Below are positions 35,020-62,630 of a DNA stretch of 64,000 nt, piece after piece; position 1 is the stretch's first letter, and every line of letters starts with the position of its first letter. Under the pieces are notes generated by a model. It saw only the letters and a program-made list of their open reading frames with translations, was not told the DNA's origin and made no database searches. The position numbers and the translations under genes are program-made. Origin of the DNA: Pseudisothecium myosuroides (lineage: Eukaryota; Streptophyta; Bryopsida; Hypnales; Lembophyllaceae); assembly GCA_951799445.1 (NCBI GenBank), contig OX637293.1:7812001-7876000 (forward strand). Direction: 5' to 3'.

Positions 35020-35100
35020 CTGGGTTGTCAAGACGTTCGGACGTTCGGACGTTCGGACGGACGTCCAAAGTCCGGGGACGCTGCCCCCTCAACGTCCTGT
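35020..35100 (+). repeat. Left terminal inverted repeat and GACGTTCGG cluster
   Basis: The 12-bp perfect TIR is followed by tandem GACGTTCG units (35,033-35,056), GGACGTCC and AAAGTCCGGGGACG. The right end shows related words (GACGTCCGG and GGACGTTCAG) just inside its TIR. These are probable transposase recognition sequences. Confidence 0.85.
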
Positions 35101-35139
35101 GACATTCACTTTTTATGTTTTTTACCTACATGGTAAATT

Positions 35140-35745
35140 CCGCGACCGAAAAACCGACCGAAAAACCGACCGTAAACCCGACCGAAAAACCGACTGAGAG
35201 AAACCGACCGAAAAACCGACCGAAAAACCGACTGAGAGAAACCGACCGAAAAACCGACCGAGAGAAACCGACCGAAAAACCGACCGAGAGAACCCGACCG
35301 AAAAACCGACCGAAAAACCGACCGACTAACCGACCGAAAACCCGACCGAAAACCCGACCGAGAGAAACCGACCGAAAAACCGACCGAAGACCTGACCGAA
35401 AAACCGACCGAGGACCCGACCGACTAACCGACCGAAAACCCGACCGATAACCGGACCGACCGAAAACCCGACCGACCGAAAACCCGACCGAAAACGCGTC
35501 CGAGAACCGGACCGACCGAAAACCCGACCGAAAACCCATCCAAAAACCGGACCGACGGAAAATGCGACCGACGACCGAAAACCAGACCGACCGAATTCTC
35601 GACTGAAAACCGGACCAAAAATCGGACCGACCGACCGAAACGCCGACCGAAAACCTGACCGTCCGAAATCACGACCGAAAACCCGACCGTCAACCCGACC
35701 GATAACCCATCCGAAAATCCGACTGAAAACCTGACCCGACCCCAA
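35140..35745 (+). repeat. CCGACCGAAAAAC subterminal array (about 50 units)
   Basis: Units of 10-13 bp, CCGACCGAAAA(A)C with AGAG or CC variants, run for 600 bp next to the left end. The same unit in reverse complement forms the 45,130-45,730 array. Long ORFs on both strands (for example 35,115-35,450) are simple products of the repeat. Confidence 0.92.
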
Positions 35746-35754
35746 TCCCGACCC

Positions 35755-36800
35755 GTTTTTACAAGTTCTCCGAAGAAATTAATAAACATACTTCAAATCG
35801 ATTGTTAAAATAATATGAGCTTTGGGATTGTTGTGTTCTGTTTTTCTTTTTTTTTTAAAACACATGAACAATTTCCATTGATAAAAAGGATACAATACAC
35901 CGAACTAAAGGGAGTTGTGTTCCAAGTTCCACTTTCATAATAAATGTATTAATGATTTTTTTTTTTCCGGGATTCTGAAACCTAGTTCCACTTACCAATT
36001 TTATAATGAATGAAAATTTAGTTATATTTTCCTAAATTTGTTTCCTAAATTTTTCACTCAAATATTTAAGAGAAAAAAAATTTAAAAAATGAATATCAAT
36101 AGTTAAAAACTTATAAGCTTAGAAGGCACAAAGTGACAAAGCCAAATAATCTTGTCATACAAATTGTACAGAATTTTTTTTTTTCCTTTTTTTTTTGGTT
36201 TACAAGCTACTGAATGTTATAGGAGTAATGGGACTAGGTCACTAGGAACTCAACAATGAACGTACGCGGGTGTTTGAGTGGAAATAGAATTTTGCGTAAG
36301 GGTCCTTGAGAAGTTTTGGCTATGGTAAGAATTGCTTGGTGTGATGTAAATGTTTGAAATAAATTAAGGATATTTTGAAGAGTGCTGATTTTCATTGAAA
36401 GAAATAACAGTTATTAGGAACAAAGGTCATCCCGCAATGTCATGCAACTGCTTGCTATGAAAATGCGACTACCATTGCGTTGAAGTAACCAAACAAGAAC
36501 AATAGAGAAGTTTGGATTACCAGAAGAGAAGATCATCAATTTGGAACAATCAAAAATAAGAAATTTTAATAGGTGTGGCATTTTTGGTTTATTATCACAC
36601 CCTACTTTTGTGGAAAGACACTTCAATCGGTGTAAAAAGAAGTTCCTCTTTTTACACATTACTTTCAAGGAGGGGGGAAAATAACATTGTCTCAATATGG
36701 TTGTTGTACATTTTTTTTAAGTTATTTTCACACCATCTTATTTTGGGTAAGATACTACGACTTCTATCAAAGTCTCAATTTAATCCACAAGGCATTGAAC
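35755..36800. other. AT-rich hAT interior, no gene
   Basis: A poly-T with a following AACAATTTCCATTGATAAAA stretch (about 35,840-35,890) resembles the reversed 3' end of another LINE fragment. Nothing else is recognisable. Confidence 0.4.
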
Positions 36801-37726
36801 ATGCATTTTGGTCTTTGGAGAACATAGCATTTTTGGGCAACTTACTACAAGCAGAGTTTTTATTTTTTTTAGTTCAAATTTTCACAAGGCTTTCAGGAGG
36901 AGTAGCTTTAAGGTCCAACTTTTCTTCATAACTTCTAACCTAGAGATTAAAAAGTTATTGTATGATATATTGATATGTGATTTTTAATGCTTGGTGGGCA
37001 GCTCAAAAATTCTTAAAAATCGCTTTAAAAAAAGAATAAAACTTCAAACTAGTTCTCTAGATCTATATATGCAAGTTTAGGTTTGAATTTTTTTTTTTTT
37101 CATTTATGAGATCAGAAGTACGCGGTGATCTAGTTTGCGGGCAATTCTGGATTCCTTGCTCAGAAATAAACTTTAAAATCCTTTATTCAATTTAATTTTC
37201 AATATCTTTTGAAAAAAAGAAAAAAAAGAATGTAGATACATTACTACAACATTATAACCATTGGGATTGGCATTTTCCAATTATATAATTAAATTCTTAA
37301 CAATTTAGTGGTTTGAATCATTCACTACTTCTTTCTGTTTGCTATTTTTTTTCTATATGTTGTACAATTCCTAATGTTTTGGAAATTTTCAAGCATAGAG
37401 CCAGCTTCACCTTGAAAATGAATCCAAATGAAACCACCATTATTGATACTTTCCGATACAAATGAGACCTTGTGAAATGCAGCTGTCTGGTTTAGGCCCG
37501 GACCTAAAAAACATTTCTGTCGATTCAAATGTTGTTACCCTGCAATATACATGGTGGACAATTCTGAAAATTTTTCCACATCTTCTTAAACCAGTTCACT
37601 ACAAGATCCTATGATTACATGTGTCCTAAAATATTTTCATTCTAAAATTTGGGTTATTTTCTGGAAATGGCAGTTTCGGAACGTTTTGGGTGAATATATA
37701 GTCAACAACCTTTAGGGGTTAAGCTC
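36800..37726 (+). repeat. MITE-like family copy inside the hAT
   Basis: It is collinear with the reverse complement of 16,849-17,791: a GGCAACTTACTACAAG block, a TTCAAATTTTCACA block, a GTAGCTTTAAGG block, TAGGATCTTGTAG in reverse near 37,605 and the terminal TTTAGGGGTTAA at 37,711-37,722. The left end is worn. Confidence 0.65.
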
Positions 37727-38403
37727 ACACCCTCAATTTTTCAAAAACAAACTTTTTGCAGCGTAAAATTTTTTTTTTACATTGACACCTTCTCATCTTC
37801 AATTATGTACTATCATTGCTTTCGTTTTCTACCTCTCTTTTCACACCCTATTTTTTTGTGGGTAGGGGATTTGTATCCATGAAATGGTAAAAACCTTCAA
37901 TCCTTATGAATCTTTTGAATGATATGAATTAAAATTTCCTTCCTAATTTACACTTCACTTTCTGGCCTTTCGGATCTTGAAATTTTTCTAATATTCCTTT
38001 CACCCTACACATGTGTCCCTTGACGCCTAAGTTCAAAATATCCAAATGTCATATATCATTCTATTTGTCATGCAACCGCGACAATCCAATATCCATTAAC
38101 AAGGAGTACTGCACTTCTCATCCACACAAAGCATACAATTTGTATAGTAAACATTTGTATTCATTACAATTTGAAAAACACACAAAAAATCAAATTGTAT
38201 ATCCAATTCCACATACATTGGTATAGATTATATGTGCATACATACTACGTCTTCTACACACGATAAATCCTCATATCTAAATTCATCCCCAAGTCCCCTA
38301 CTTATGTACCTCTATAGATTACGGTAAGTTGGTAACCTACTGATATTTAGTATGATTGCCGGAAATATTCATCGGGCATAGGAAACTTGAAAGTAGTGCA
38401 GAA
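37727..38403. other. Spacer downstream of the kinase-like gene
   Basis: AT-rich, probably the 3' UTR and flank of the minus-strand kinase-like gene. No separate feature is seen. Confidence 0.4.
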
Positions 38404-39831
38404 TCAATTTACGACGTGAGCCAAAGTGCTTTCTTTTCTGATGACCCATTGTAAGTACTCGTGAAACGCCAGTCCCAATGTGTGGTGTTCGAATCTGCTG
38501 CATTGTGGAGTTTCCTTCTGCAATGCAGTGTAAGCCTCGAACATGCACTGCCTGTTCATCCTCTGAGCTATTTTAGCAACCGCATATGCTTCCGTTTCAC
38601 ATGATAACCTTGGAATGACGTCCTCATTCGCATCAATTTTGTGCAAGTAGGCGCTACTGGGATCCAACCACCACCTCTGTGTCAAAGTTTGATCCCTCTG
38701 AATGGTAGATGTGAATGTGTACAAGGATTTAGGACGTTCACTAGCTAAGCTAGTTAAGCCCCAATCACAAATTCCAACATACACACGTGACTCATCATCA
38801 GGAAAGTGAAACATGATGTTGTCTGGAGAAATATCATTGTGGAGATGTCCAGCAACATGCACTGCATTCATAATGTGCACGAACGCCCATGTAAGTTTCG
38901 TTCGCTTCTTCCTAAATCGAGCGAGGCGGAAAGCGTTAATCACCTCTGCTTCCGATGGATTGTCATACATCAACCGAACCTGTATGTTGTCTGGATAATC
39001 ATTATCCATGTTTAGCATATTTCGCAGTGTCCCACCATTCCGCCAATAGGAGTACCCTTCATTCCTTGTTGCATGCACTGCAAAAAAACGTATTACTCCA
39101 GGGTGCGCAATCCTCACTGCCATTGATTCGTTCAGGTGTTCCAACTTCGCTAACTCAGGCCTTTTATTGTGTTGGTGAGATCTCTTTGCTGCAAACTCCC
39201 AAAACGGTACTATAGGAGCACATCCTTCAATTCGGACCCTCCGAATAGTAGCATATCCACCCTTTATAATTTTATCATCTTGGGCAATCACTTGTGCCGT
39301 ATCTGGAAGTGCAATGAGATGTCTCCTGCCATGGTACAATTCATCCTTTCCATCATCGCTATTCCACCATGTCATTGATTTCCTTCTATTGCGCGTGTTA
39401 GCAAATGGCTTGCACCGCTTCGTGAATAAATCAGCTCTGAGGATAACTTCTTGAAAGGCTTCATCATCGGCGCGGTGTTGCTTCACATATTTTGCGAGAA
39501 CCACTTTGGAATTCCACAACGCATCATACGCCCTGTTGTGAAGGAATTTCACAAAGCCCTTCTTCTCCATTTCATGATGCCATTCAGGAACGTGAAGGGC
39601 TTCCATCATCTTCTGCGACATATCATCCATGAATTTCTTTGGGCACTCCTCTTGGTATCTGATGTATTTATTGTCCAAGGAAAGAGTGGTTTCAGACTCA
39701 AAGAATTTCAAGGTGAATTCGATGAGAAAGTTCTTGCATGCATCAGAGGGAATTTCCTTCAACTCTTTGATACTTGGTTGCCCTGATTGCACCCCGTCTC
39801 GCCTCTTTGCAGCCTTCTTTGCCCTTGGCAT
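38404..39831 (-). CDS. Protein-kinase-like cargo gene
   Basis: The product is 475 aa with no internal stop. The basic N-terminus (MPRAKKAAKRR) looks like a nuclear localisation signal, and residues 20-180 form an unknown domain. A kinase fold follows: glycine loop IIKGGYATIRRV (188-199), candidate ATP-binding Lys in EFAAK (K217), catalytic loop HLHNDISPDN (Asp 333 and Asn 338), and metal-binding CDWG in place of DFG (Asp 356). A TQRWWLDP block stands where APE-like sequence is expected. The catalytic residues are therefore present and activity is plausible, but the substrate is unknown. It is transcribed toward the left end from a promoter at about 40,085 that carries the element's GC-rich motif array. 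No homolog was identified beyond the kinase fold. It appears intact. Confidence 0.8.
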   Translation of the reverse strand: MPRAKKAAKRRDGVQSGQPSIKELKEIPSDACKNFLIEFTLKFFESETTLSLDNKYIRYQEECPKKFMDDMSQKMMEALHVPEWHHEMEKKGFVKFLHNRAYDALWNSKVVLAKYVKQHRADDEAFQEVILRADLFTKRCKPFANTRNRRKSMTWWNSDDGKDELYHGRRHLIALPDTAQVIAQDDKIIKGGYATIRRVRIEGCAPIVPFWEFAAKRSHQHNKRPELAKLEHLNESMAVRIAHPGVIRFFAVHATRNEGYSYWRNGGTLRNMLNMDNDYPDNIQVRLMYDNPSEAEVINAFRLARFRKKRTKLTWAFVHIMNAVHVAGHLHNDISPDNIMFHFPDDESRVYVGICDWGLTSLASERPKSLYTFTSTIQRDQTLTQRWWLDPSSAYLHKIDANEDVIPRLSCETEAYAVAKIAQRMNRQCMFEAYTALQKETPQCSRFEHHTLGLAFHEYLQWVIRKESTLAHVVN

Positions 39832-40082
39832 CTTGATGAACTACCGGTATTTAATTACAATCGGTAATGAAAATTATCAGTCGCGATTTCACTTCACTCT
39901 GGAGTACACGTAATCTGCAATCAAGTTGTCAAAAAAATTGGCAATAAGTGGCCCCCAAAACCGGACTCTTGCTTTCCCAAGGAGAGGAGCCAATGGAGGA
40001 CAAACCACCAAGCTCTCCGCTCCACGCTTGCACAAGGCAAGGGGGATAGCAAAAGTGAGGGAGCGGTCTGGCCGTCCGCCCC

Positions 40083-40210
40083 TCTTATAGTTTGCGGTTG
40101 CCCCGACCGCCGAATCGGACAGCCCGACCGCTCCATCCGCCGCATCGGACGGCGGTGACAGATTAGGGTTCGGCTCGCGGTCGGCAGACTGGGCGGTCGG
40201 CGGGGAGTCG
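40083..40210 (-). promoter_or_regulatory. Kinase gene promoter: TATA box and CGGTCGG array
   Basis: On the minus strand CTATAAGAGGGGCGGACGG (about 40,072-40,090) lies about 250 bases before the ATG. Immediately upstream (40,100-40,205) are at least six copies of CCGACCG, CGGTCGG or CGGACGG words. The RING-H2 gene promoter at 50,341 has nearly the same CTATAAGAG-CGGACGG core. Confidence 0.72.
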
Positions 40211-40384
40211 CTGGTTTTCTTAAGTTCGTAGAAAGATGGAAATAGAATTTTTTTCGCAACCATGCCTACATTCCGGAAATCCAAAGTTCTGCTGAAATAA
40301 GCTGAAAATAGGGAAGAGGAGGGCTGAGGGCAGCCCAAAAGAAAGTTTTTTTGAGTGGATTTTTTTCCCATTCGTGCTACTGTT

Positions 40385-40700
40385 GTCTACCTAGAAATCT
40401 TTCATTCATTCCATTTCAATTGGTTACAAATAGTTTTACACAATCTTATTTTCAAGGCACTTGAGAAAACAAACTTGTAGAATTTCATTGATGAATGCAA
40501 TTTCTTCAATTTTTTTTTTCACAGAAACAGGTCTATGTGGTTCATTTTTTTGGGCTACAATAATCTTACCATTGAATTACCCTAGTCTTATTTAATGCAA
40601 AAGATATTAAAATTTAATGATTCATTGTATCCACTTTGGCACTTCCATATATGAATAATAAAAAATTTTGACAATTAAATTTTTTTTTAATTTCCTCTCG
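40385..40700 (+). repeat. Second interspersed family, copy 1
   Basis: It shares the order TTCATTCCATTT, ACTTGTAG(A/G)ATT, TGAATGCAAT, a long poly-T, a (G/T)CTA-CAATAATCT block and AAAGATATTAA with 42,425-42,720, 48,890-49,215 and 61,255-61,580. Non-coding, about 300 bp, only found inside the hAT in this window. Confidence 0.6.
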
Positions 40701-40839
40701 GCTAAACTACCAACACAATTCTCCAACTTCCAGATTCAAAGCTCACAACTCACTATTGCAAAAATTTCAAGTGCGAAATCTTCAAAATCAAAACACTGCA
40801 TTCCATAATGTCTTTAAGAACTTCTTTTCTCCACTTTAA

Positions 40840-41800
40840 CGCCTATAGGCCCAAATACTATTTTGGGGCAAAATATCAATTTTGGATAGTTTATTATGCA
40901 TAGAATTTTTATTTTCATTATTTCAAATTTTCACACACGATGTGCTCTCCGAGTAGCTTTCAGGCGGATTAGGCCCAATAATTTCATAACATCTAACCAC
41001 AAGGTCAGAAAGGTTTTGCATGATAAGTATTTTTTTTTATCTCTAGGCAGCTCAGGCAGCAAGAAAACGTCTTCAAAAATCACTTGCTTCAAAAATTAAA
41101 ATTTAAAATTGGTTCTTCAGATTTGTATAAACAAAAGAAGCTTTGAATCATTCCATTAATCCATTCCGATCACCAAGCCAAAACTCAAGCGGATTTTTAG
41201 TTTGACGGTATTTTTTCAATCCTTACTCCCAAAAAAAAATCAAAGTCATTTGTTTAATTCAAATTTCAGTATTTCTAGGAAAAAAAAAATATATTGGGTT
41301 TCAAGATTCTTTATTTCAACATCACAACCATTGGGACTGGCATTTTTCAATTCCTTCATCAAATTCCTAACAATTTAGTGTTTTCAATCATCCTCTACTT
41401 TTTTCTATTTTGTATTTTTTTCCTATGTGTTGTACAATTGTAAATGATCTGAAAATTGTCAAGCATGGACCGAACTTGCCTTCAAGAATGAATCCAAAGA
41501 GTTACCCCAATTTTCGTCATTTTTTAAAATGAATGTGACCTTGTGAAGTGCAGCTGCCCCGTTTTCCGGAGGGACCAAAGAAGCACTTTTGCGGATTGAA
41601 ACACTATTATCTTACAATCTAGATGGTGAAAAATTCTACAAGTTTTCCCGCATCTTTTCTAACCAGTTTACTACGAGATCCTACGGTTATATGTGTCCAA
41701 CATTAAAAGGTTTATAAAATTTGGTACTTATACTGAATCCAATAGTGCTACAGTAGTTTTGGTACAAACTTAGTCAAAAATCTTTAAAGGCTAAACACAA
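40840..41800 (+). repeat. MITE-like family copy inside the hAT
   Basis: Collinear with the copies at 36.8 and 46.7 kb: a TTTTCACACACGATGTG block, AGTAGCTTTCAGG, a CCATTGGGACTGGCATTTTTC block, and CTACGAGATCCTA in reverse of the 16,849 copy. It ends with CTTTAAAGGCTAAAC, a mutated TIR. Confidence 0.65.
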
Positions 41801-42720: not shown

Positions 42721-42722
42721 TA

Positions 42723-43595
42723 ATGAAAATAAAGTGTTCCTTTTTTAAGAAAAATATAGACTTTCAACTTACGTCTCCAACACATAAAACCTTAAATTCA
42801 ATGTTTATATTTCAAAAATATTCCACAACTAGCGATCAAATTCACCCTAAACTGAAAGCCAGTATTCAAAAAAAAAATCTTTTTCGACTTCGAATGCTAA
42901 TAACCTCAACCTATACAGTGAAACTTCATGAAATTTTGACAACATCATCTACAATAAGTGAAGTACAAGATCATACGCTTAGATTGGAAAAAAAAAGAAA
43001 AAAAAAGGGTTCATGGGTGAATGCAGCAAAAATGGCAGCTTCGGGTGTTTGTAAACCAAAAAATGACCTTCGAACTTCAAGGGTTGAAAACACCCAATTT
43101 CTCCAACTTCAAATGTTTACACCTTCCTTTCATGCAATCCGACTTTGTACATTCACATACAACACCCAACTAACTGAAGACAAATGCAGCCAAGGTGACA
43201 ATTTCTAATTTTCTATAGCTTTTTGAAAAAATGATAGACTTAGAATTTCAAGGTTTAAAAGCAATTCAATGTTTTTGTTGTATATTTGGACTATGCTTTT
43301 CATTGGAGAGTCTATATTGACTTGAACATGAGATGATGGGAGAAAGCGATCCGGTACAATATTTATATTAATAAAAAAAACTGGTTACACAGAAAATGGT
43401 ATTCAATAATAGTAATCTCAAATACCTACCAATGTCTCACATATTCTCAAAAAAGGCCATTCTATCTATAGTGCGAAATACAGTACTACAATTGAACAAG
43501 ATCATTGTACTACGCTTGGCATGAAAAAACATTGCATATACATTTAACAATATACATGATCGTATTCTAAAAGAAAGTCGTTACAACAATACACA
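42723..43595. other. Spacer, no supported gene
   Basis: The plus ORF at 42,723-43,208 has a Lys/Ser/Thr-rich, composition-driven translation and no domain. The rest is probably the 3' flank of the minus-strand Gly-rich gene. Confidence 0.4.
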
Positions 43596-44702
43596 CTATT
43601 CCTCCTCGGAATCTGAATCGGTGTCATCTCTCTGACTTGGCCCAGTAGAAGCAGACCCATAAATCCCAAGATATGGACCTCCACCATAGATGTCTCCACG
43701 TCCACTTGATGCACCTGTTTGTCCATAATTGCCGTAGCCAGGACCTCCAAAAGTTGGTGGAGGAGCTGAAACGTTGTGGTCAGAACGATCTTTGTTTGGA
43801 CGACTATAATAAGAGCTCCCGTGATGTTCATATGACCCACCTCCAGTGGTTCCACCGTAGTATTGTGAGCCTCCTTCGCTGGAACCACCATACTGTACGG
43901 TTCCATGGGTTCTTTCTCTACCTTGAGATTCACCTCGGGGATCATTAGCATATTGAGAATGACTTCCGCCTTGTGGTGGGCCATATGCACCACGGTCATG
44001 TCCGTATGACCTATCGTGCCCAGGTTGTCGACCATGATCTTCTAGGCTTCTTCGCATTGCCTCATGCATTTCTTGTTCGTATTGTATGTTGTCTCGTTCT
44101 TCTTGGCGTTCGTGTCTTCCTCCAAATGTTACGGGTGCAGGAGCATCATCATCTTCATCATCGAGTTCATCCTCTGCATCCGGCAACACAACTGTGGGAA
44201 GATGGCCAAATCCTCGATTAGACCACTCGTACATACAATCGCTCGGACCTTCCCAGTTCGAATCAATCACGTGGGTGCTGCGATTCAATTTGTGCACATC
44301 TTTACCCGGAATAGTGCGCCAATCCACTTCTTTGTGGAGTACAATCTCTGCCCAAATCATGGCCATGACACCATACAACATTATATTTGGTTTGTTGTTT
44401 GGTAAACCTGCTGCTTTTTGGATTTCCTTGTACCGTTGCACAAAGTGCTCGCTCTTATATGTGCTGATTTGACCTTCCCAACGGGGATGTTGATAAAGCG
44501 TGCGTTCACGTGACCAGAGTTTGGAGACGTGTGTCATTTTCACGTACTTTTTGCACATTGTGGAGGTCCACAATTTCTCCTCCTCATCATCCCATCCAGG
44601 CTCAGCTACACAAAATGAGTTAGCCCAATCATCCCAATTTATGTCCTGCGATATTCCCCTTTTGGCCTTCTTGCCTTTGCCCCTTGGTGTTCCGTGTGAC
44701 AT
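43596..44702 (-). CDS. Acidic/Gly-rich cargo protein sharing a domain with RING gene
   Basis: The product is 368 aa with an intact frame. The basic start MSHGTPRGKGKKAKRG is followed by a domain at residues 36-130 (GWDDEEEKLWTS, CKKYVKM, then LYGVMAMIWAEIVLHKEVDW). This domain matches residues 49-150 of the RING-H2 protein at 50.6 kb (GWEEEGAEYWTS, CKQYVKM, LASMVYAELILGRKVDW). An acidic linker (EDELDDEDDD) and a Gly/Ser/Tyr/Gln-rich low-complexity tail of about 150 residues follow, ending in DSDSEEE. Such tails are often prion-like or condensate-forming; that is inference. I do not recognise the shared domain. Position 44,702 is chosen as start because it is the first ATG downstream of the TATA region and the basic N-terminus follows. 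Confidence 0.75.
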   Translation of the reverse strand: MSHGTPRGKGKKAKRGISQDINWDDWANSFCVAEPGWDDEEEKLWTSTMCKKYVKMTHVSKLWSRERTLYQHPRWEGQISTYKSEHFVQRYKEIQKAAGLPNNKPNIMLYGVMAMIWAEIVLHKEVDWRTIPGKDVHKLNRSTHVIDSNWEGPSDCMYEWSNRGFGHLPTVVLPDAEDELDDEDDDAPAPVTFGGRHERQEERDNIQYEQEMHEAMRRSLEDHGRQPGHDRSYGHDRGAYGPPQGGSHSQYANDPRGESQGRERTHGTVQYGGSSEGGSQYYGGTTGGGSYEHHGSSYYSRPNKDRSDHNVSAPPPTFGGPGYGNYGQTGASSGRGDIYGGGPYLGIYGSASTGPSQRDDTDSDSEEE

Positions 44703-45735: not shown

Positions 45736-45869
45736 TTGGCACATCGGTCCGGAGAACAAACCTGAAGCAAAAATGCACCACATATGGACTCATGAAGTTC
45801 ACGTGGACCAGAAATAAGTCACTAACTCAAAGTTCAAACGAGTTCTTTAAGTTCCTCATTCGATATCAA

Positions 45870-50562: not shown

Positions 50563-53451
50563 TTGCCAATCATGACTGGTGAAGGTGATGCGACTACCGA
50601 TGGGATGACTTCAGGTGGTGATAACACGAAAAGGATTAAACAGAAGGGAGCCAAACATGAGCTTCATTATGAGATTTTAGATAATCCTGACATCAAAGTC
50701 GAAAGCGGATGGGAGGAAGAGGGAGCAGAGTATTGGACCTCCAAAATCTGCAAGCAGTATGTTAAAATGTACCACATTGGCAAGTTGTGGCCTCGAGATT
50801 TTCACTCGGTCCACACACGGGCTTTCGGTTGCAAACCAGGGAGTTGCCAAAACTCGCAATTTGTTTGTCGATCGAAGGAGGTCTGGCGGGCGCTTTTTGG
50901 AGACAAGGGAATGAATAAGGGGTACATCAATTATACCTTGGCATCTATGGTTTATGCGGAACTCATACTGGGCCGCAAAGTGGATTGGAGTACGTTTCCG
51001 ACAATAGCACAGTGTCCACTTCTGATTGGAAGAAACCAGAAAGATATTCCCCATTGTCCCCCCAGGCCTCAGGCAAAACCCAAAGAAGCATTACAAATTA
51101 CTACAACGCATACAACGGAGGTTGGGGAGGGGACAAGTGATGCAGCGCAGTTGGGTTCATTGCATGCCCTTGCGGAAGTTGGCAATGCCCTCGCGGGAGG
51201 TACAATAGAAGAAGTCTTACCAACTCCCCCAGTGAAAGTGAGCAATACCGCTTCGGGAGGCGCAAAGAGACTGGTGTTTTTGACTCCTCAAATGTGTTTG
51301 ACTTCCAAACCGATTTTGAGTACTGTGTTAGGTCGAGAGACTGCTCCAAACAAATGCGGCCCCGCGATAGGAAATGGGACACCTATTTTGCCACGAAAGG
51401 AGGTTGGCGACAAAGAAGTTGCAAGGGCCAATGCTAGAATTGATAGTCTTCTAGAGAGCAATGCTCTACAGCCCTTGATGTACACACCTCTTCCGCCTTC
51501 GTCTTTACCGTCAAGTCCAATCCTAAGTCCAGAAATGGAAGTACAACCGACACGAAGATACGGAAAAGAACCCCAGGACGATGCCATGAACCTTTTTATT
51601 GATGGGATAGAGCCTGAAAGCGAGCATCCACATTTGTCACCACCAGGTGATGACCCAGTGGAGAACCTTGGTCTAATGCAAACTACCAAGGAAGTGGAAT
51701 TCCTGCTAGACTGCGACAATCGGTGGAAGAAGCATCAAGAAGAGCTTCAGAAAAATGACCCCAACCACGAGGCCAGCAGCTCTGGAGTGCATTTATGGGG
51801 AGCTATCAAGCCATCGGTTGTGGAAACTGCTTTCTCGCTAACTTCTTCAGCTCGACTTGTAGCTCAAATTACGCCAAGGATTATCGAGATGGCGCAAGAA
51901 TTTTCTAGAGTCTCTCCAGAATTGATGACTGGTGCCTTGTCTTTCTTGGATTTCACAAAGTCCATGGTACCACTTCTCGACGACAATGTAGGCAAAGCAA
52001 GCGAGGTGCTTCTCTTGGAGTCAGAAAACATGAAGTTGAAGGCAAAGTGCAAGGACTTGGCCCGACAAGTGCAGATGGAGAAAAAGCTTGTGAAGGCAGA
52101 AAAGCGCAGGAATTCATTAATGCTTGTCCGTGTGGATGAGAATGAAAGATTAGAAACTGAACTCATTAAATTCAATCGCATGCATGAAGGGGTACCCATC
52201 ACAGACAATGTGAAACCCCCGTCTGTGGAGCCAAGTCAAGAAAGTGAGGATAAACTCTCTCTTCCTTTCGATAAAGTTCAAGCAGTGCAGGAGACGGAAG
52301 TTGTGCATTTGGATGACGAGGAGGAAACCCGTAGATGGGAAGTGCAGGTACGACCCTCCACCAATAACCCTACCCCGACACTGGTGGATGCTTCCATGCA
52401 AACTGAAGGTCAGGAGTTTGAAGAGCTGAAACAAAAATTGAATGAAACAATTCGAGAAAAAGCCCTTCTTCAGTCGGACTTGGAACAAATGAAACAGACA
52501 ATGGACTTGCGTCACTATATGCCCGGATACGGATTGGAGTATCGGTGGTTGGCATGGATGCAGATTCTCCAAGACAGGCCCTCCGTGGTATCCCGAGCAA
52601 TGCAAGGGCTTCAAAAATTGGCAATGAAGTCGGCTGAAGATTGTAGTGCCATTGAGACCTCTTTAAAGAGGTTCCAAAATGCGTTCCATCAAGGAATTAG
52701 GGGGTATACCGAAATTATATGTTGGGGAGACATGGATGTCATGTTTGAGCGCTTGAATCACACGAAGAAGGAATCACCAATTAAGAATGTGAATTGGACC
52801 TTCGAAGCAGAGGAAGGATGGGTGCCTTACAATACACTTTCAGCACACATCAAGAAGCATGAGAAGGTTGTAGTGCACGCTTGTGATCCGGCTCCGGGCA
52901 TCTTGGAGGGTCATTGTAGTGTTTGTCAAGGCCCCTTTGGTCTTGAAGGAGCTCTAACTATGGGCCAATGTCGTCACACTTTCCATGTAACATGCATGGT
53001 TAGAGCATCGCTCATTCGTTCAGTTTGTGCGGAGTGTCGCTCTCCTTTGAGTCCTAGGTTCTATGAAATGCTTAGGATTTTGGAAGTGATGCCCCCTGGC
53101 CACGAATACAATCGTTGGAACCTTCCATTGGACCAAGGACCATACAAGTTTTCGAATTACTTGCATTGGGGAAAACCTCTGACATGGGATGCAAATGAGC
53201 GAAAGCATGGACTTTACGAGGAGTCCCAAGAACCGGTAGATGATCTCATGTGGATGACTATGAACAGAGAGGTGGAGTTGCGAGCACGAGTTATTGAAAA
53301 TGAAGAGGGTCGTGAATTATTTTGTCGCAACATGGGGGGGCATTGGAGCTTGCAGCACCAGAAATTCTTCCGATTTCCTAAAAAGGAGGTGAAAAAAGGG
53401 CCAGATGGCAATTGGGTGGAGGTGGAGGGTCCGAAAGAGTTTAAGGAGTAG
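50563..53451 (+). CDS. RING-H2 / coiled-coil cargo protein
   Basis: The product is 962 aa. Residues 49-150 match the domain in the Gly-rich cargo protein. Two coiled coils are visible (about 481-545 and 615-660). A RING-H2 finger occupies 785-825: CSVC, then GQCRHTFHVTC, then CAEC, spacing C-x2-C...C-x-H-x2-H-x2-C...C-x2-C. RING-H2 proteins are usually E3 ubiquitin ligases; the target here is unknown. A second ATG three codons downstream (50,572) is an equally good start. The frame stops at TAG 53,449-53,451, but coding-like sequence continues in the same frame for another 172 codons, so the stop may be a recent nonsense mutation. It lies between the 129-bp satellite and the transposase gene, on the same strand as the transposase. 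Confidence 0.8.
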   Translation: MPIMTGEGDATTDGMTSGGDNTKRIKQKGAKHELHYEILDNPDIKVESGWEEEGAEYWTSKICKQYVKMYHIGKLWPRDFHSVHTRAFGCKPGSCQNSQFVCRSKEVWRALFGDKGMNKGYINYTLASMVYAELILGRKVDWSTFPTIAQCPLLIGRNQKDIPHCPPRPQAKPKEALQITTTHTTEVGEGTSDAAQLGSLHALAEVGNALAGGTIEEVLPTPPVKVSNTASGGAKRLVFLTPQMCLTSKPILSTVLGRETAPNKCGPAIGNGTPILPRKEVGDKEVARANARIDSLLESNALQPLMYTPLPPSSLPSSPILSPEMEVQPTRRYGKEPQDDAMNLFIDGIEPESEHPHLSPPGDDPVENLGLMQTTKEVEFLLDCDNRWKKHQEELQKNDPNHEASSSGVHLWGAIKPSVVETAFSLTSSARLVAQITPRIIEMAQEFSRVSPELMTGALSFLDFTKSMVPLLDDNVGKASEVLLLESENMKLKAKCKDLARQVQMEKKLVKAEKRRNSLMLVRVDENERLETELIKFNRMHEGVPITDNVKPPSVEPSQESEDKLSLPFDKVQAVQETEVVHLDDEEETRRWEVQVRPSTNNPTPTLVDASMQTEGQEFEELKQKLNETIREKALLQSDLEQMKQTMDLRHYMPGYGLEYRWLAWMQILQDRPSVVSRAMQGLQKLAMKSAEDCSAIETSLKRFQNAFHQGIRGYTEIICWGDMDVMFERLNHTKKESPIKNVNWTFEAEEGWVPYNTLSAHIKKHEKVVVHACDPAPGILEGHCSVCQGPFGLEGALTMGQCRHTFHVTCMVRASLIRSVCAECRSPLSPRFYEMLRILEVMPPGHEYNRWNLPLDQGPYKFSNYLHWGKPLTWDANERKHGLYEESQEPVDDLMWMTMNREVELRARVIENEEGRELFCRNMGGHWSLQHQKFFRFPKKEVKKGPDGNWVEVEGPKEFKE

Positions 53452-53967
53452 TACGGCGCGTATAACCACACTTTGATTGGCAGGGCCTTCTTCTTGTCCA
53501 AGTTGGAAGAGGCTGCAAAAGTTCGCGCTCTTGTCCAAGTAGATGCAGCAACAAGTACAGAGCATGCATTAGTAGATGTGGCAGGGGCATTCGACAGGAG
53601 GATGTCCGACATTATAATTCAATGGAGGGCATTCTTGTTGCAAGGAGATCGACCGAACAATTTGCAATCCGAAGACGATGATGTGGCAGTGAACGCGATG
53701 GTAGATCGAGTGGATGTTGCTTTGAGAACTCTGAGCGCCGGCGAAGTAGATTTGACTCCCGCGAGGAAGAGGAAACGTAGGGTTGAAGATGAGGATGACC
53801 ACTCTCCGGAATCAAAGCGGTTGTTTTCCAAGGTTGACGAAGAAGTGCAATCCGGAGGGCGCATTGTTCGAGTAAGTCAACAACGCCAAACTCGACAAGC
53901 TGCTAGAAGACTCTTGGCTGGAGAAGGGACATCTCCTGTTTCGGGAGAAGGTAGTGGCAGGTGCTGA
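53452..53967 (+). pseudogene. In-frame C-terminal extension of the RING protein
   Basis: It is directly continuous with the RING gene beyond a TAG. It contains a helical stretch (FFLSKLEEAAKVRALV), an acidic region and a nuclear-localisation-like basic cluster (ARKRKRRVEDEDD). It ends at a TGA at 53,965. Most likely it was the original C-terminus. It could instead be reached by readthrough or a splice that skips the TAG. Confidence 0.6.
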
Positions 53968-55459: not shown

Positions 55460-55499
55460 TCGTATGCAGAAATTGAATTTATATAGTGAATCCCTGAAG

Positions 55500-56458
55500 T
55501 ACGAGACATGGTTTTCTGGAAACATAGTGATTTTGGGCAACTCACTGTTAATGAAATTTTATTTATTTTCCTTTGAAATTTTCACACTAGATGTATGATG
55601 TATCCAAGGACTCAAGGAATATTTGTAAGGCGGTAAGGCCCAACAATTTTCATAACATTTGGTAACAAAGTGAAAAAGTTATTGCATGATATGTACTATG
55701 TAGTTTTCTTTGATGTTTGGACAACCCGGAAAGTAAAAAAAGGTTCTTCTAAAATCCCTTTTTATTAAATCAAAAATTTGAAATTGGCTCTATAGATTTA
55801 TAAATACGCGGGAAGCTTCAATCATTTATTTCAAATGAGTGAATCAAAATTTATAAGGATTCTTAGTTTGAAGGTAGTTATAGAATCCCTACTGTAAAAA
55901 AAGCTTTGAAGTCATTTATTTAATTTAAATTTCAATATTGTTGGAAGAAAAGAAAACATTGGATGCAAATTATTTATTTTAACACTGCAACCGTTTGAAT
56001 TGGCACTTTCTAATTCTATAATAAAATTCGTAACAATTTAATGATTTGATTCATTCTCCACTTCTTTCTACCTACTATTTTTTTTCTAACAATTGTACAA
56101 TTTCAAATGAACTTAAAAAATTTCAAGCACGTGGCCAACTTCTTTAGGAAAAAGAACCGAAAGATTTACAATCGGTTTTGTCATTTTATTATATAATGTG
56201 ACTTTGTGAAGTGTAGGTGCCTTGATTTTCGCAGGGCCCAATAAAGCGTGTTTGTCGATTCAGAAGCTATTATCTTGCAATGTACATGGTGAAAATTTGA
56301 AAAAGTCTTTCCAGAATTTGTTTGAATAATTTACTACGAGATACTCCGGTTATATGTATGGTGGAATTTTTTTTACCAAAATTTGCTACTTGTACTGGAG
56401 ATGGCATTTTTCAAACAATTATGGTGAAAACATAGTAAAAAACCTTTAAAGGTTAAAG
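55500..56458 (+). repeat. MITE-like family copy inside the hAT
   Basis: It has the same block order as the 46.7-kb copy (GAAACATAGTGATTTTGGGC, TTTTCACACTAGATG, CGGGAAGCTTCAATCATT, TGACTTTGTGAAGTG). It ends CCTTTAAAGGTTAAAG, a worn TIR. Confidence 0.65.
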
Positions 56459-56584: not shown

Positions 56585-56830
56585 CATTGAGGCCTAGTTA
56601 AAAGCACTCATAAATAGCTCTAAACCTCTATAGTACCCCATTTCAACTTGAAGTGGAATAGAAGTTTAGAACTATTTATAAGCGCCATATAGAGTAGGAT
56701 TCGAACTCATGACCTCGTCATGAGCAATAATGAAACAAACCTTTAAGTGCCCCCAATTGCAATGGCGGGTCAATCGTCTACTAAATCCTCTATGTTCTGA
56801 ATCCGTTATCCTTCATATTAAAGTGATGGG
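56585..56830 (-). repeat. tRNA-like (SINE-type) module, copy 1
   Basis: On the minus strand GAGTTCGAATCCT (about 56,699-56,711) fits a polymerase III B box (GGTTCGAANCC), preceded by GAGGTCAT. The stretch recurs at 61,675-61,945 (CCTCTATAGTACCCCATTTC and AACTTGAAGT blocks). No complete cloverleaf could be drawn. It lies immediately upstream of the transposase promoter array. Confidence 0.5.
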
Positions 56831-56854
56831 TGGACGCCGAATTCCTCCTGGCAA

Positions 56855-57150
56855 TTGCCCAGCTCCGCCGACCGCCCCGAATGGCCGATCGCCCTGACTT
56901 CCCCGACCGCCGCGATTGGCCGACCGCCCCGACTTCCCTGACCGCCCCTAATGGCCGACCGCCCCGAACGGCCGACCGCCCCGACTATCCCGACCGGCGG
57001 TTCCGGCCGACCGCTCCGAACGGCCGACCGCCCCGACTTCGCCGACCGCCTTGATCGGAAATCGGACGGCAGAAACTGACTGACCGTTGAAAGCGAGCAG
57101 ATTTCCTCTCCAACGGTCGGCAGCAGTTCAAGAGTATAAGTGCAAGGAAG
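56855..57150 (+). promoter_or_regulatory. Transposase promoter: CCGACCGCC array and TATA box
   Basis: About 18 GGCCGACCGCC/CCCCGACTT units fill 56,865-57,055. AGTATAAGTG (57,133-57,142) is the TATA box, about 245 bases before the preferred ATG at 57,388. Array-then-TATA is the same layout as at the other three cargo genes. Confidence 0.75.
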
Positions 57151-57387
57151 AAAGTTTTTAGAAGCACTCCTGAGAAACTGAACGCTAAGATTTCCGAGGG
57201 CTAGGAGCTGCAATTTTTTGTGTCCCCTGCTTGGTAATGCATAGTTCAGTGGACGGGGGGGCCTTGATTTTCAAGGCTTTGTACACATCATGCTAAACTG
57301 ATTTTGGACATTGTTGAGATTCTGACATTGTGTGTGCACTTTGTGATTTTGAATTGGTTCAATTATAAGGAATTCAAACTTGTCACT

Positions 57388-59847
57388 ATGAGCAAGGACT
57401 TCTCTCCTTGGTATGGCCTCGTGCCACCGAGTAAAGTGCAGTGCAAGGCTTACAACTTGTTGTTTGCTAAAAAGCCCGCGCGAATGTTGAGCCATCTAGG
57501 ATATGAAGGCGCATGTGGTGCTCGTGATACCGGAGTTTGCCTTTGTCCGAAATTGACATCAGAGATTCGAGGTCTATTTCGTCGTTGTGAAGGGAAATTC
57601 CCACGGAGATCGGGTGTGGACAATGTGGATAGAAACAACATGCCCACGGACGGGAGTGACCTCTCCAATGGCAGGGACAGATCACGTTCTACACAGGAAG
57701 ATTCATGCACAGTACCGCAAGAAATTCTTTATGTGGGTTCGGAAGGGAATCGAATTACTGAAACATCTGGTGAACGTGGAACTCCCAGGGCATCTAGCAG
57801 TAGGCCGTACAAACAGAGCAGGCTAATAAATGGATTTGAAGAAGCACACAAACGCAAATTGAATGCAATGTGGGCCAATTTTTTTTATGCGGCAAATATA
57901 CCATTTGCTGTAGCCCGAAATCCAGCCTTTAAAGAAGCAGTAAAACTCACGGTAGAGTGGAATAGGCCGTACACACCACCATCATATCATGATCTACGAT
58001 GCAAATTGCTTGACGAAGCAAAGACGGACCTTCAGGCAAAGCTCTTGAGGAGAACCGAAGATAGCATAAGGAAGTTTGGAGCAACATTGTCTATTGATGG
58101 ATGGAGCTCGATTAGAAACCGCCCATTGATAAATGCCATTCTCGTATCTTCTGCCGGAGAGGAATTTGTTGGATCGGTAGATACAAGCGGGATGGAAAAA
58201 AACGCAGAGTATATGGCATCTGTCTTGGAAAAGTTTATAGAGCACGTGGGTCCCACCAGTGTGGTACAAATCAGTGCTGATAATGCTCCGGTAAATCAAG
58301 CGGCATGGAATTTGGTATCCAGTAAGTATCCACACATTTATTCTCAAGGATGCGTGGTGCATGCCTTGAATTTGTTGTTGAAAGATTGGGGGAAGGAAAA
58401 ATGGATTGATGAGTATCTGAAGAAAGCCCATGCCATTGTGAAATTCTTCAAGAGTAGGCAGATGCCGCTTGCTATATTTTGAAAGCACGAGACGAAATAT
58501 AGCTTGTTGTTGCCGGCCAAAACGAGGTTTGCCTCGAATTTTATTATGATTCACCGTTTGTTGAAGGTCAAAGTAGCATTACAACAAAGTGTGGTGGATC
58601 CGCAGTGGGTGGAGTATGTGTGGAAGCTAAAGGACAATCGGAAAACACAACCCCGGTCTGAGTCTCGAGATGTCAAGAAATTTGTTCTCAATTCGCATTT
58701 CTGGAATCGTTGTGTCAATATCCGAGATGTAGTGGGTCCAGTTGTATTTGCTCTACGCGACTTGGATGCGAAGACACCATGCATGGGAAAGGTATTGCAT
58801 ATTATGAAGGGTTTAGAGAAACATGTGATGGACTTGGAGAAAGAGCCATTTTCTTTGCCCGCAAATCGAGCAGAACGACTGCAGGCCTCATTTGTGAACC
58901 GACGAAAAATGGGGGAGACAGATCTACACTATGCAGGAGCTCTTCTGAACCCGTACTTGCTGCACGATAAAGAACTAGCTGACGACACAAATGCAACGGA
59001 GGCATGCAAGCGAGTTATAATGAAAATTTGTAAACCCGAAGATTACGCAATGGTCGTGAGGGAATTTGTAGCCTTTCGACATAGAACCCCTCCGTTCCAT
59101 AACATGTTAGACTCGGGCAAACAGATGTTGTCGGCACATGCTTGGTGGGATTTTGAAGGTGCATGTGGGAAGCTCATTGCTCCAATTGCAAAGAGGATAT
59201 TGGCCCAACCAGTATCATCATCTTCATGCGAACGAAATTGGAGTAACTATTCGTTTGTCCACAACAAATCTCGGAACAAGTTGAAGCCACAAAGAGCAGC
59301 AGATTTGGTGTATGTGTACAGTAATTCGAAAGTTTTAACGGCATCAAAAGAAAATGATGAGAAGAAGTGGTACCATGAGAACGTGGAGTCAGAAGATTCA
59401 GAGGGGTTTATCTCGGAAGACGAGGAAGTTGACGAGGATTATGGGCCACAATTCAGTGAGGAAAATGCCATAAACGACGACATGCAGGACTATGACAATG
59501 GACCGCTTCAGAGCCCTAATCGCAGTAATGAAGACTTTGGGGTCAATCATCGAGACGCTTATGAGTTCGATGAATCGGACGAGGACATCAATATGGACAA
59601 TGAAGATAATATTCTCCTAGCTAGATTTTGCGATGGGACCGGATTTTTGAATAGCCAAAATATCGTATCGCAAGGGGAAGCGGCTTACGTAGAAGATCCG
59701 GAGGCAAATGGGACAAGGAATGTCAATGATGACACTCCAAAAGCGGATGAAGTTCTTCAAAGTTTGAAGTGTACATCCATGACAATGGTAGAAGTGCAAG
59801 AGAATGAAGAGCACATTGACAAAGGAGGATGTCAGTTGAATGTTTGA
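57388..59847 (+). pseudogene. hAT transposase (DUF659 / hAT dimerisation), one internal stop
   Basis: A degenerate BED-type finger lies at about 57,430-57,600 (VQCKAYNLLF with the second Cys as Tyr, then HLGYEGACG and CLCPKLT). The DUF659-type core has its first catalytic Asp in SIDGW (codon 58,096) and the second in SADNA (58,279). The C-terminal dimerisation region has the Glu in SSCERNWS (59,230) and RAADLVYVY. All three residues of the hAT catalytic triad are present. A single TGA at 58,480-58,482 breaks an otherwise continuous frame. I prefer ATG 57,388 (MSKDFSPWYG) to 57,304, whose extra residues look like leader. The transposase would bind and cut the element ends. As it stands this copy probably makes only a truncated protein. 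Confidence 0.9.
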
Positions 59848-60717
59848 ATGAATGTGGGCAATGCAAGTGTTCAATCTATTGTGGTATTGGCAAATGAGAA
59901 GAGCGGGGAACGAAGTCATGAAAATGACAAGCCAAGCGAAGTCCAAAGAAATGTTGATGGAGGTTTGATACATGGGTCTGAGAGCCCAATTTCTTTGGAC
60001 CATGATGAAGATAAGAAACAAGTCATTGAAGAATGCAGAGGAGCACGATATAGCGGTGTTCTTCCTGTAGCACGCGAAACTCCTAGTGTAGCATTGGATG
60101 GCTCAGGAAGTTCAGGTGTAGGAAGACGACTTGTCCGAATTTCAAAAAAAATGCAACCTCGTATCAATTCATCTCCAATCAATTTACCATCGACCGATGG
60201 TGAGATGAACGAGACATTGGAAGAAATGTTTATTCGGGAATCTGGTCATGCACCACCACGGCGCTCGACAAAATCGTCAGCTCCTACAACGTTGTCTTTG
60301 AATGCAATGAAGGTAACTATTTAAGGAGGAGCTGGAGCAGTGAAATTGGATGCCCAACACTCCATAAAATCCAAAAGTAAAAGTAAAATGGAGCCTTTTG
60401 CAGCGAGCCCAACCAAGAGACAAGGTGTAGGTAGAACTCCCCTTGATGCATGTCTTCTTTCTTCGAAGGGGAAAATGAAAACAATTCCTTCCCTTCATGA
60501 AGATAGGAGGAACGCCATATTAAGAGTAAAAAGGGAAAAGAGCAAGGACCAACCAAGGAGATTATCTACATCAAGGCAAGTACAGCACGGAGGAGTGAGA
60601 ACTTTGTATTCTTCATCTGACGACATGGAAGTGACATCCAATGAAGATGTGGAATGGAGAAGTAGAGGAGATTGTAGTGGGGCTGAGGTAAAAGGGGATA
60701 GTGATTATAAGCCTTAG
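59848..60717 (+). pseudogene. In-frame extension after the transposase stop
   Basis: The same reading frame stays open after the TGA at 59,845 and, after a TAA at 60,322-60,324, up to 60,717. The product is Ser/Arg/Glu-rich with no domain. It may be an eroded C-terminal tail or a second small ORF (ATG at 59,848). A polyadenylation signal AATAAA at 60,886-60,891 fits a transcript that covers it. Confidence 0.45.
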
Positions 60718-60885: not shown

Positions 60886-60891
60886 AATAAA
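60886..60891 (+). terminator. AATAAA polyadenylation signal
   Basis: Canonical signal 170 bases past the last in-frame codon of the transposase unit, followed by a T-rich stretch. Confidence 0.5.
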
Positions 60892-60974
60892 GTTTGATTG
60901 TATGTTTTCTTTCTTCAATGAAGCATAATATATTGCAAGAATTGTATGTAGTGAAGAGTTTCACTTTCATAGTT

Positions 60975-61670
60975 GTCCTAGTTTAACCCCTAAAGGACCA
61001 TTGTCCGTTTGGCGGACATTTGGGATTTTGGGCAGGTACCTACAGGCTGAATTTTTGTCCTCATTTTTTGAAACTTTTTTTGAAGATAGGAAAACTGATA
61101 AGCTTCATGGGAATATAATTTTTTTTTCAATTGGTGCCCGGGAACAAAAGTTACGCCCAAATAAGCTCAAAACAAGGGAGAGGGGGTAGCAAAAAAAATG
61201 TTGCAAATTTCATTTTATTTTATTTTAAATTTTTTTCCCATAGATTATATTTTTGTCTATCCCTAAAGCTTTGATTCATTCCATTTGGATTTGTTATGAG
61301 AAAGTTATGGACAATCTATTTTTTCGGGCACTTAGAGCATCTTCTGATCTTTCTGAAAAAAAACACTTGTAGGATTCATTTTTGAATGCAATGTTTATAA
61401 TTTTTCAAAAAAAAAAATTCCGCGTGATTTAGTGTTTTTGCTAGAACAATCTCACCGTTGGGATTAGTTCATTTCAATTCTATGTAAAAGATATTAATAT
61501 TTTAGATTTTCCTTCTATCTCGTACCTATTTCTACTTAACAATTTTTTTAGTAATTCAGAAAAGAATGAATGTGACCTACGAAAATGTTGGATTTCTATT
61601 CGATGTAGATCAAAATTCCTAAAAGTTCCCAAAAAGACTTTGGCATATTTGAATTAAGATGAAAAAATGA
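60975..61670 (+). repeat. Composite repeat, incl. second interspersed family copy 4
   Basis: It starts with GTTTAACCCCTAAAGGAC (MITE-like TIR) but the following sequence differs from the 0.95-kb family. The 61,255-61,580 part matches the second interspersed family at 40.4, 42.4 and 48.9 kb. Confidence 0.55.
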
Positions 61671-61674
61671 GTCA

Positions 61675-61945
61675 AAAAACAATGAGGCCTGACTAAAAGC
61701 GCTTATACCTCTATAGTACCCCATTTCAACTTGAAGTAGAATAGAAATCTGTAACTATTTATAAGCGCTGGATATTGAAAATGAAGAACAAGGTACAAAG
61801 TAAGTTTCGAACCCATGACCTCTTGAACATCAATAATGAAATAACTCCGCAAGTGGCTGCAATTGCAATAGGCCAATAGCTGATGTACCATGTATGTTCT
61901 AAAATTTTTTCCGTCCCTGTTAAAGTGACAGCCTGAAATCCTGAA
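61675..61945 (-). repeat. tRNA-like (SINE-type) module, copy 2
   Basis: On the minus strand GAGGTCATGGGTTCGAAAC fits a B box. It is a direct repeat of 56,585-56,830 with clear but imperfect identity. Both copies stand immediately next to a CCGACCG array. Confidence 0.5.
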
Positions 61946-61949
61946 CCCC

Positions 61950-62210
61950 TCCGGCCGACCGCCCCGACCGACTCAACGCCGACCCCGATTACCGACACCG
62001 GCAGCCGACCGACGCGGCCGGCTCACCGACAATGGAAAGCCGACCGACCGCCGTCCGCCGACCGCGGCGTCCGAATTACCTGAGGTAATTTTTTTTTACG
62101 GCAGTTTTACCCACCTCGTCCGATCGGACGCTGCGTCCCGACGTCCGACCGTCCAGACGTCCGGATTTTGGACGTGATTTGGTCCCGGACGTTCAGTTTT
62201 GACAACCCAG
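61950..62210 (-). repeat. Right subterminal CCGACCG array and terminal repeat
   Basis: CCGACCG, CCGACCGACCGCC and GTCCGCCGACCGCGG words (61,950-62,070) are followed by a short AT stretch. GTCCGATCGGACG, GACGTCCG and GGACGTTCAG words come next, and then the TIR TTGACAACCCAG (62,199-62,210). Confidence 0.88.
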
Positions 62211-62620: not shown

Positions 62621-62630
62621 GATTTTTGCA

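Follow-up and report, generated by a model that had tools for sequence, protein, structure and literature searches.

A single hAT transposon of 27,191 bp probably occupies positions 35020–62210 of the window (the whole stretch of DNA that was analyzed, 64 kb). In what we consider the best explanation of the whole, this element carries four genes of its own, is inserted in a retrotransposon gag gene and would be controlled through a sequence motif. The four gene units that the original prediction had announced for a 27.2-kb hAT-type element, namely a kinase-like, a Gly-rich, a RING-H2 and a transposase gene, were all found.

Ends and Target Site of the Element

The element is delimited by perfect 12-bp TIRs, and the sequence between them contains no N. 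The left TIR, CTGGGTTGTCAA, was located at 35020–35031 (+ strand), and its reverse complement forms the right TIR at 62199–62210 (− strand). The 8-bp duplication by which hAT insertions are recognized was present on both sides, as two identical TSD copies (TGGCTACC) at 35012–35019 and 62211–62218; the perfect TIR and the perfect TSD that had been predicted were thereby both confirmed. The TIR length of 12 bp lies within the range of 5–27 bp given for hAT elements in a portion of PMC12506042. The exact TIR occurred twice in the whole window, and the number of one-mismatch sites elsewhere in the window was zero. The TSDs of hAT subfamilies, Ac or Buster, follow the patterns nTnnnnAn or nnnTAnnn; at this single site, TGGCTACC matched neither pattern in either orientation.

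A chance origin of the TIR/TSD pair was rejected by windows shuffled locally (200-bp blocks, single-base shuffle), in which a perfect pair of a 12-bp TIR and an 8-bp TSD appeared in 0 of 30 and in 1 of 200 cases. A second perfect pair was found in the real window (17541/46967, TTTTAAAA), because both of its ends fall in two inverted copies of one repeat of ∼950 bp.

The host sequence is a Ty3/gypsy retrotransposon on the − strand. One part of it, from the 3′ LTR (28156–29521) to gag, extends over 28156–35019 with Pfam matches for gag, zinc knuckle, RT, RNase H and integrase; the other, at 62219–64000, comprises the gag start and the 5′ LTR (from 62631, cut at the window end). The truncated gag ORF matched Retrotrans_gag in Pfam (E = 5.1e-11). 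When the flanks (299 + 300 bases) were rejoined with one TSD copy, a single open gag frame of 199 codons was obtained, which bears out the claim that the insertion lies in gag and that its removal restores the frame in phase. The LTRs of the host are 98.3% identical, and the gene cores of the element contain three premature stops, compared with 2.6–3.3 expected since insertion. Because of this LTR identity, a stop count that fits the expectation and the lack of a convincing nested hAT (see below), the element appears to have transposed in the recent past and as a single unit.

Genes of the Element

The hAT transposase core was found at 57388–59847 (+ strand), with DUF659 and Dimer_Tnp_hAT domains and an in-frame stop at 58480–58482. 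The matches to PF05699 (E = 1.1e-09, 38.3 bits against a cut-off of 21.4) and PF04937 (DUF659, E = 1.8e-34) share one stop-interrupted frame, which therefore includes the hAT dimerisation domain. The same frame contains SIDGWSS, ADNAPVN and SSSCERNWS, beginning at residues 235, 297 and 611, respectively; these are D/D/E-like motifs, which may hold the catalytic D, D and E. Beyond the terminal stop of the core the frame stays open with one internal stop in 290 codons, a possible C-terminal tail (59848–60717, + strand).

The kinase-like gene (38350–39831, − strand) has 494 codons with an in-frame stop at 38404–38406, past which its homologs extend by ∼20 residues. The fold and the catalytic residues of the protein kinase superfamily were both recognized in its product. 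The protein search yielded 49 relatives, of which the two named ones come from the moss Ceratodon (M758_3G001500 and KC19_VG055000 of C. purpureus). In view of these moss relatives a plant origin of the element is likely, its host being probably a moss or another bryophyte. The kinase profile matched two MAP kinases weakly among the sequences of solved structures. When the alignment was compared with viral contigs, 40 pattern stretches and no confirmed relative were obtained; with bacterial and archaeal contigs, there were 227 stretches and likewise none confirmed.

The Gly-rich gene (43596–44702, − strand) encodes 368 amino acids without an internal stop, and the RING-H2 gene (50572–53967, + strand) has ∼1,130 codons with an in-frame stop at 53449–53451, a position through which its homologs are read. 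The RING-H2 protein is likely an E3 ligase. The two proteins have an N-terminal domain in common (hhalign, 99.7%). Moreover, relatives of both apparently lie together on one foreign contig, since their matches are on contigs of identical size (17,649 bp). Such linkage was seen for 1 of 14 Gly-rich matches, 1 of 10 RING matches and 0 of 49 kinase matches, each cluster being represented in these counts by its longest contig alone. The comparison with viral contigs gave 13 pattern stretches for the Gly-rich alignment and 19 for the RING alignment, with no confirmed relative in either. Against Pfam, 3 of 15 members of the Gly-rich family showed a weak zf-C3HC match (E ≤ 1, best 0.0054), and against the sequences of solved structures the Gly-rich profile matched one chain (E = 0.95). 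The predicted Gly-rich model (mean pLDDT 47.5) was too poor for a structure search with the common N-terminal domain.

The transposase, RING and kinase frames now contain stops, and the present copy is therefore probably immobile unless it is helped in trans.

Distribution of the CGGTCGG and CGGACG Motifs

The motif CGGTCGG/CCGACCG, first spotted by eye, has 95 sites in the window, all within the element and all in its end and 5′ zones; the coding zones contain none. All four genes are preceded by such sites, and each has a TATA-like box, the TATA patterns having been picked after inspection. The 5′ region of the kinase gene (39832–40420, − strand) has four sites (40103–40200) and a TATA-like box at ∼40084–40089, and that of the Gly-rich gene (44703–45154, − strand) has three sites and a TATA-like ATAAATA at ∼44987–44993. 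Nine sites, some within 32-bp tandem units, and a TATA-like box at ∼50343–50348 were found in the 5′ region of the RING gene (49900–50562, + strand), and ten sites with a box at ∼57135–57140 in that of the transposase gene (56800–57387, + strand).

The motif is also found near both ends. A left terminal array of (CCGACCGAAAAA)-like units contains 33 sites (35131–35760, + strand), and a second simple array of 29 sites, inverted relative to the first, lies upstream of the Gly-rich promoter (45155–45760, − strand). The right subterminal region (61950–62198, − strand) combines seven CGGTCGG/CCGACCG with seven CGGACG/CGTCCG sites, and the 99 bp adjoining the left TIR (35032–35130, + strand) contain four CGGACG sites and no CGGTCGG. 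CGGACG is less exclusive, with six sites outside the element and two in the transposase frame.

The presence of CGGTCGG near the ends and at four promoters suggests that the element turns on its own genes jointly, and from this arrangement of sites we interpret the element as a hAT whose several genes have a cis-regulatory code in common. It is conceivable that slippage could multiply GC-rich arrays that have no function.

Internal Repeats and Search for Nested Elements

Complete MITE-like repeat copies were found on the + strand at 36779–37723 (with ends of the TTAACCCCTAAAG type), 40835–41795, 46718–47681 and 55485–56457, together with a decayed partial copy at 60982–61568 (+ strand). The TTAA-type ends of these repeats are reminiscent of piggyBac elements. 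The four complete internal copies differ from one another by 25–33%. A duplication of gene units, at which the spacer repeats had hinted, was dropped as an explanation, because the repeats belong to a MITE-like family that is dispersed and has one more complete copy, the fifth, outside the element (16850–17790).

Internal TIR/TSD pairs, which would have marked the element as a nest of hATs, were sought within 35032–62199. With a TIR of 12 or 11 bp and an 8-bp TSD, no pair was found at up to one mismatch; with a 9-bp TSD there was likewise none at up to one mismatch, and with a 5-bp TSD no perfect one. A 3-bp TSD with a 13-bp TIR gave three perfect pairs, all linking the two inverted motif arrays. 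At two mismatches, five AT-rich pairs with an 8-bp TSD were observed in the interior, one of which (43477–48173) surrounds the Gly-rich gene; 100 single-base shuffles gave a mean of 0.72 and a maximum of 3. The left flank (35 kb) likewise contained five TIR/TSD-like pairs at up to two mismatches. The prediction of a single element rather than a nest was upheld by the zero count at up to one mismatch in 12 bp.

Alternative Explanations

The original prediction had regarded the extra genes as cargo, and a hAT element with three unrelated host genes taken up as passengers would be compatible with the wide occurrence of kinase and RING domains in hosts and with the fact that none of the 49 kinase matches is on a contig of the same listed size as a Gly-rich or RING match. 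We nevertheless consider this capture improbable: the Gly-rich and RING proteins have a domain in common, the 5′ motifs of all four genes match the element ends, and one foreign contig seems to carry relatives of both Gly-rich and RING genes. In addition, each gene can be read as a single ORF that spans as much as its relatives do, and the relatives fall in many divergent clusters, unlike those of a single host gene. The three extra genes thus look like the element's own, because two of them have a common domain, the 5′ motifs of the four genes match the ends and two have apparently linked relatives; the cargo interpretation is not supported.

A composite origin, in which gene units were added later to an ordinary transposase-only hAT as repeat-flanked blocks or small nested elements, would account for the fact that two successive complete MITE-like copies, always in the + orientation, bracket each of the three genes other than the transposase, and for the two-mismatch pair that encloses the Gly-rich gene. 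Yet the internal MITE-like copies are much further apart than the host LTRs, so that any such capture would predate the present insertion and the 27 kb would still have moved as one; nested pairs at up to one mismatch are lacking, and the motif common to the ends and the genes would require a second cause. This origin is therefore judged unlikely. It is very improbable that the two ends come from different elements through misassembly or chance. Although a single sequence is at hand, the TSDs are identical, gag is in frame across the join, the sequence is free of N, and the motif islands mark the element from end to end.

Proposed Mode of Action

Under the preferred explanation of one hAT with genes of its own, the element would have inserted itself into gag of a young Ty3/gypsy retrotransposon, bringing the transposase, kinase, Gly-rich and RING-H2 genes with it. 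The transposase, the common-domain proteins or both may bind CGGTCGG or its companion CGGACG, in a VANC-like manner. One motif-binding factor might then mark the ends for transposition and also activate all four promoters or keep them unsilenced, and the kinase and the RING protein might permit transposition and promoter activity by modifying or eliminating proteins of the host or of the element. After insertion the copy would have decayed, through stops in the transposase, RING and kinase frames. A wider proposal is tentative and on balance doubtful: a bryophyte lineage of giant multi-gene hATs may exist in which the common DNA-binding domain reads the motif while the kinase and the RING E3 lift silencing and license transposition, a system of the VANC kind with an independent origin.

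Comparison with Known Systems

With the hAT superfamily (DUF659-type plant transposases, with Ac as the classical member) the element shares the 8-bp TSD, a short TIR, DUF659, Dimer_Tnp_hAT and candidate D/D/E-like motifs. Classical hATs, however, are a few kb long with a single gene, whereas the present element has 27 kb and four genes. Ac itself is 4.6 kb long, according to a part of PMC3260210. Among the papers listed by literature searches, which covered few subscription papers and no preprints, no title or abstract opening describes a comparable multi-gene hAT. The word hAT, as a whole word, has no occurrence in the accessible part of PMC6431247, on giant transposons, and the accessible part of PMC9247546, on a moss genome, gives the share of DNA transposons and does not mention hAT.

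Several eukaryotic DNA elements are similarly enlarged. Teratorn of medaka fish is, in the partial account available, also an element of the cut-and-paste kind in which many genes have added to the size; it measures 180 kb and is a fusion between a piggyBac-like transposon and a second mobile entity. The fusion partner is a herpesvirus; unlike in Teratorn, no viral matches were obtained for the eight interior ORFs scanned. A tRNA scan of the present sequence with the bacterial code found no tRNA. The Starships of fungi are also large DNA elements with several genes beyond the mobilising enzyme, which according to a portion of PMC12506042 is a DUF3435 tyrosine recombinase, and their size reaches about 700 kb. 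The suggestion that the present element is a counterpart of such fungal giant cargo elements was not supported: its extra genes look element-own, and DUF3435, the captain that is the first gene of Starships, was not matched by Pfam in any of the eight interior ORFs scanned (E ≤ 1). ToxhAT of wheat-pathogenic fungi, a 14-kb DNA transposon with extra genes that was once called hAT, is held to be misclassified on account of its TA duplication and its TIRs of 74 bp, the name ToxTA being proposed (PMC12506042, in part). The ends of the present element, in contrast to those of ToxTA, are of the hAT type.

The element combines 27 kb of a hAT, three extra genes, each with its own set of relatives, and a single motif code shared by ends and promoters. 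hAT elements are usually viewed as small single-gene parasites; if the explanation given here is true, cut-and-paste hATs can become complex self-regulated units, as VANDALs, which are MULEs and thus of another superfamily, did with VANC. The element also lends itself to tests: a single motif can be paired with two proteins that are candidates for binding it, and targets can be sought for the kinase and the RING protein. VANDAL21/Hiun of Arabidopsis, with its VANC anti-silencing protein, is likewise a multi-gene plant DNA transposon (PMC5735166, in part); in the present element, by comparison, a motif-binding protein and any anti-silencing effect are what we infer. As in VANC-type systems, the motif arrays are confined to non-coding parts (95 of 95 sites).

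Ends and target site of the element

The hAT transposon is bounded by a perfect 12-bp terminal inverted repeat (TIR), CTGGGTTGTCAA, at 35020-35031 and 62199-62210, with a perfect 8-bp target site duplication (TSD), TGGCTACC, on both sides of the TIR pair, exactly where the original prediction had placed the ends. Neither a further exact copy of the TIR nor a site with a single mismatch was found elsewhere within the 64-kb window. A perfect pair of 12-bp TIR and 8-bp TSD was observed in 0 of 30 and in 1 of 200 locally shuffled windows, and the sole other such pair of the real window has its two halves in oppositely oriented copies of one dispersed repeat. Both flanks belong to a minus-strand Ty3/gypsy retrotransposon, and 6 of the 7 flank ORFs scanned matched Pfam gag, zinc-knuckle, reverse transcriptase, RNase H or integrase families. 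When the element was removed, the gag frame was restored as predicted, the joined flanks (299 + 300 bases) giving a single open frame of 199 codons. Based on the perfect TIR and TSD, their rarity in shuffles, the Ty3/gypsy flanks and the open gag after joining, the observation was confirmed to the base. The anatomy of the element is directly observed, and both its ends and its transposase are of the hAT type.

According to excerpts of PMC12506042, fungal Starships are mobilised by a DUF3435 recombinase, and the element differs from them, as described there, in enzyme, ends and gene content. In the same excerpts ToxhAT (14 kb), originally placed among the hATs, carries TA duplications, for which its classification is now regarded as wrong. 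No such multi-gene hAT elements were among the literature matches listed, whose scope excluded preprints and most subscription papers.

Integrity of the element

The original prediction had named internal TIR/TSD pairs as the mark of a nest of several hATs. No nested hAT-like pair with ≤1 mismatch was found inside the element, which upheld the prediction at that threshold; at two mismatches five pairs, all AT-rich, were present. These five exceed single-base shuffles (mean 0.72, maximum 3, in 100 shuffles), but their density does not surpass that of the left flank, which has 5 pairs at up to two mismatches. One of the five, at 43477-48173 (2 mismatches in 12 bp, 8-bp repeat AATACAGT), surrounds the Gly-rich gene; it is a candidate small nested element, probably formed by chance. 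Because of the two-mismatch pairs our confidence was lowered slightly, and it remains fairly likely that the element is a single unit.

A ∼950-bp repeat with TTAACCCCTAAAG-type ends is present within the element as four complete copies, one in each of four spacers (36779-37723, 40835-41795, 46718-47681 and 55485-56457), and as one partial copy (60982-61568). The four have common profile bounds (2-942) and are 13-19% divergent from the five-copy majority; the fifth complete copy, outside the element (16850-17790, minus strand), diverges by 8%. The host LTRs (28156-29521 and 62631-64000; 98.3% identical) diverge at 19 of 1,370 columns, or ∼0.7% per copy; the element seems to have moved in recent times. 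Provided that the repeat and LTR clocks can be compared, the host retrotransposon is much younger than the interior spacers, and the 27 kb would therefore have been assembled before landing. The repeat family is MITE-like, with ends TTAACCCCTAAAG...CTTTAGGGGTTAA, and perhaps of piggyBac type; all four in-element copies are in plus orientation.

Motifs common to the ends and the promoters

The motif CGGTCGG was initially spotted by eye; in a subsequent unguided listing of the 7-mers that all four upstream regions share, it ranked first of 15, and it was absent from flanks and coding parts. All 95 sites in the window (either strand) lie within 35020-62210. Two simple arrays, near the left end (35131-35760) and beyond the Gly-rich promoter (45155-45760), hold 62 of them, and the remaining 33 are located upstream of the kinase (4), Gly-rich (3), RING (9) and transposase (10) genes and beside the right end (7), with none in the coding zones or the remaining spacers of the element. 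Among dinucleotide shuffles (1,000 per region), the observed count was reached once for the Gly-rich region and never for the kinase, RING, transposase or right-end regions; a sixth region, the 99 bp from the left TIR to its array, contains no CGGTCGG. The second motif, CGGACG, has 36 sites in the window, 6 outside the element and 30 inside. Those inside include 4 sites within the leftmost 111 bp and 5 within the rightmost 110 bp, while the four 5' regions contain 2, 4, 6 and 1 and the transposase frame 2. A TATA-like box lies ∼220-291 bp before the start of all four genes, the TATA patterns having been picked after the motif islands were read. Given this placement, a single motif set is common to the ends and to the four promoters.

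Subterminal repeats are bound by hAT transposases, as established for Ac. Since the promoters hold the same motifs as the ends, all four genes would likewise be targets of an end-binding protein, for which the strongest candidates are the transposase and the Gly-rich and RING proteins, which have a domain in common. The kinase and RING protein could, at a guess, target silencing or cell-cycle factors for modification or degradation. We infer that the element's proteins would be expressed, bind the motifs and counteract silencing. Judging from excerpts of PMC5735166, the closest worked-out parallel is VANC, encoded by VANDAL21, which binds short motifs, often tandem arrays, in non-coding parts and causes methylation loss in its element.

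Probable gene decay and a possible transposase tail

One in-frame stop each was found in the kinase (38404-38406), RING (53449-53451) and transposase (58480-58482) cores, and none in the Gly-rich core. The LTR divergence predicts 2.6-3.3 stops across the four gene cores (8,439 bases). In a comparison covering the kinase and RING proteins, their relatives continue past the in-frame stops. Because the stops fit the LTR-based expectation and these relatives run on, the genes were probably intact at arrival and decayed afterwards.

The transposase frame is open far past the hAT dimerisation domain (59848-60717, plus strand): beyond the core-ending stop it reaches 60717 with one further internal stop in 290 codons, and the other two forward frames contain 18 and 26 stops. 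Judged from this frame, the transposase may once have had an unusually long C-terminal tail, in which case the decay would include two more stops.

Relatives and other loci in the window

The element is linked to mosses via relatives of one protein family. One relative of the kinase-like protein, P0018, has been assigned to a 'Bacilli bacterium' MAG, on a 2,919-bp contig, and is probably misbinned plant DNA. Outside the hAT, a pair of related ORFs occurs in two copies, at 12120-13002 (plus) and 26766-28098 (minus), encoding proteins of the KKGGHAKD... and WP-LDMA-SEAFRA... types (likeness judged by eye), and a 503-aa ORF at 21719-23230 has a similar GGHAK stretch. Scans of 4 of these 5 ORFs, all but 12120-12494, yielded no Pfam match at E≤0.01; together they are possibly another multi-gene mobile family. 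An ORF containing an FHA domain and a lengthy acidic stretch (3322-3990, minus) is probably a host gene, and a zf-RVT (reverse-transcriptase zinc-binding) match (8272-9054, minus) is probably a LINE fragment.
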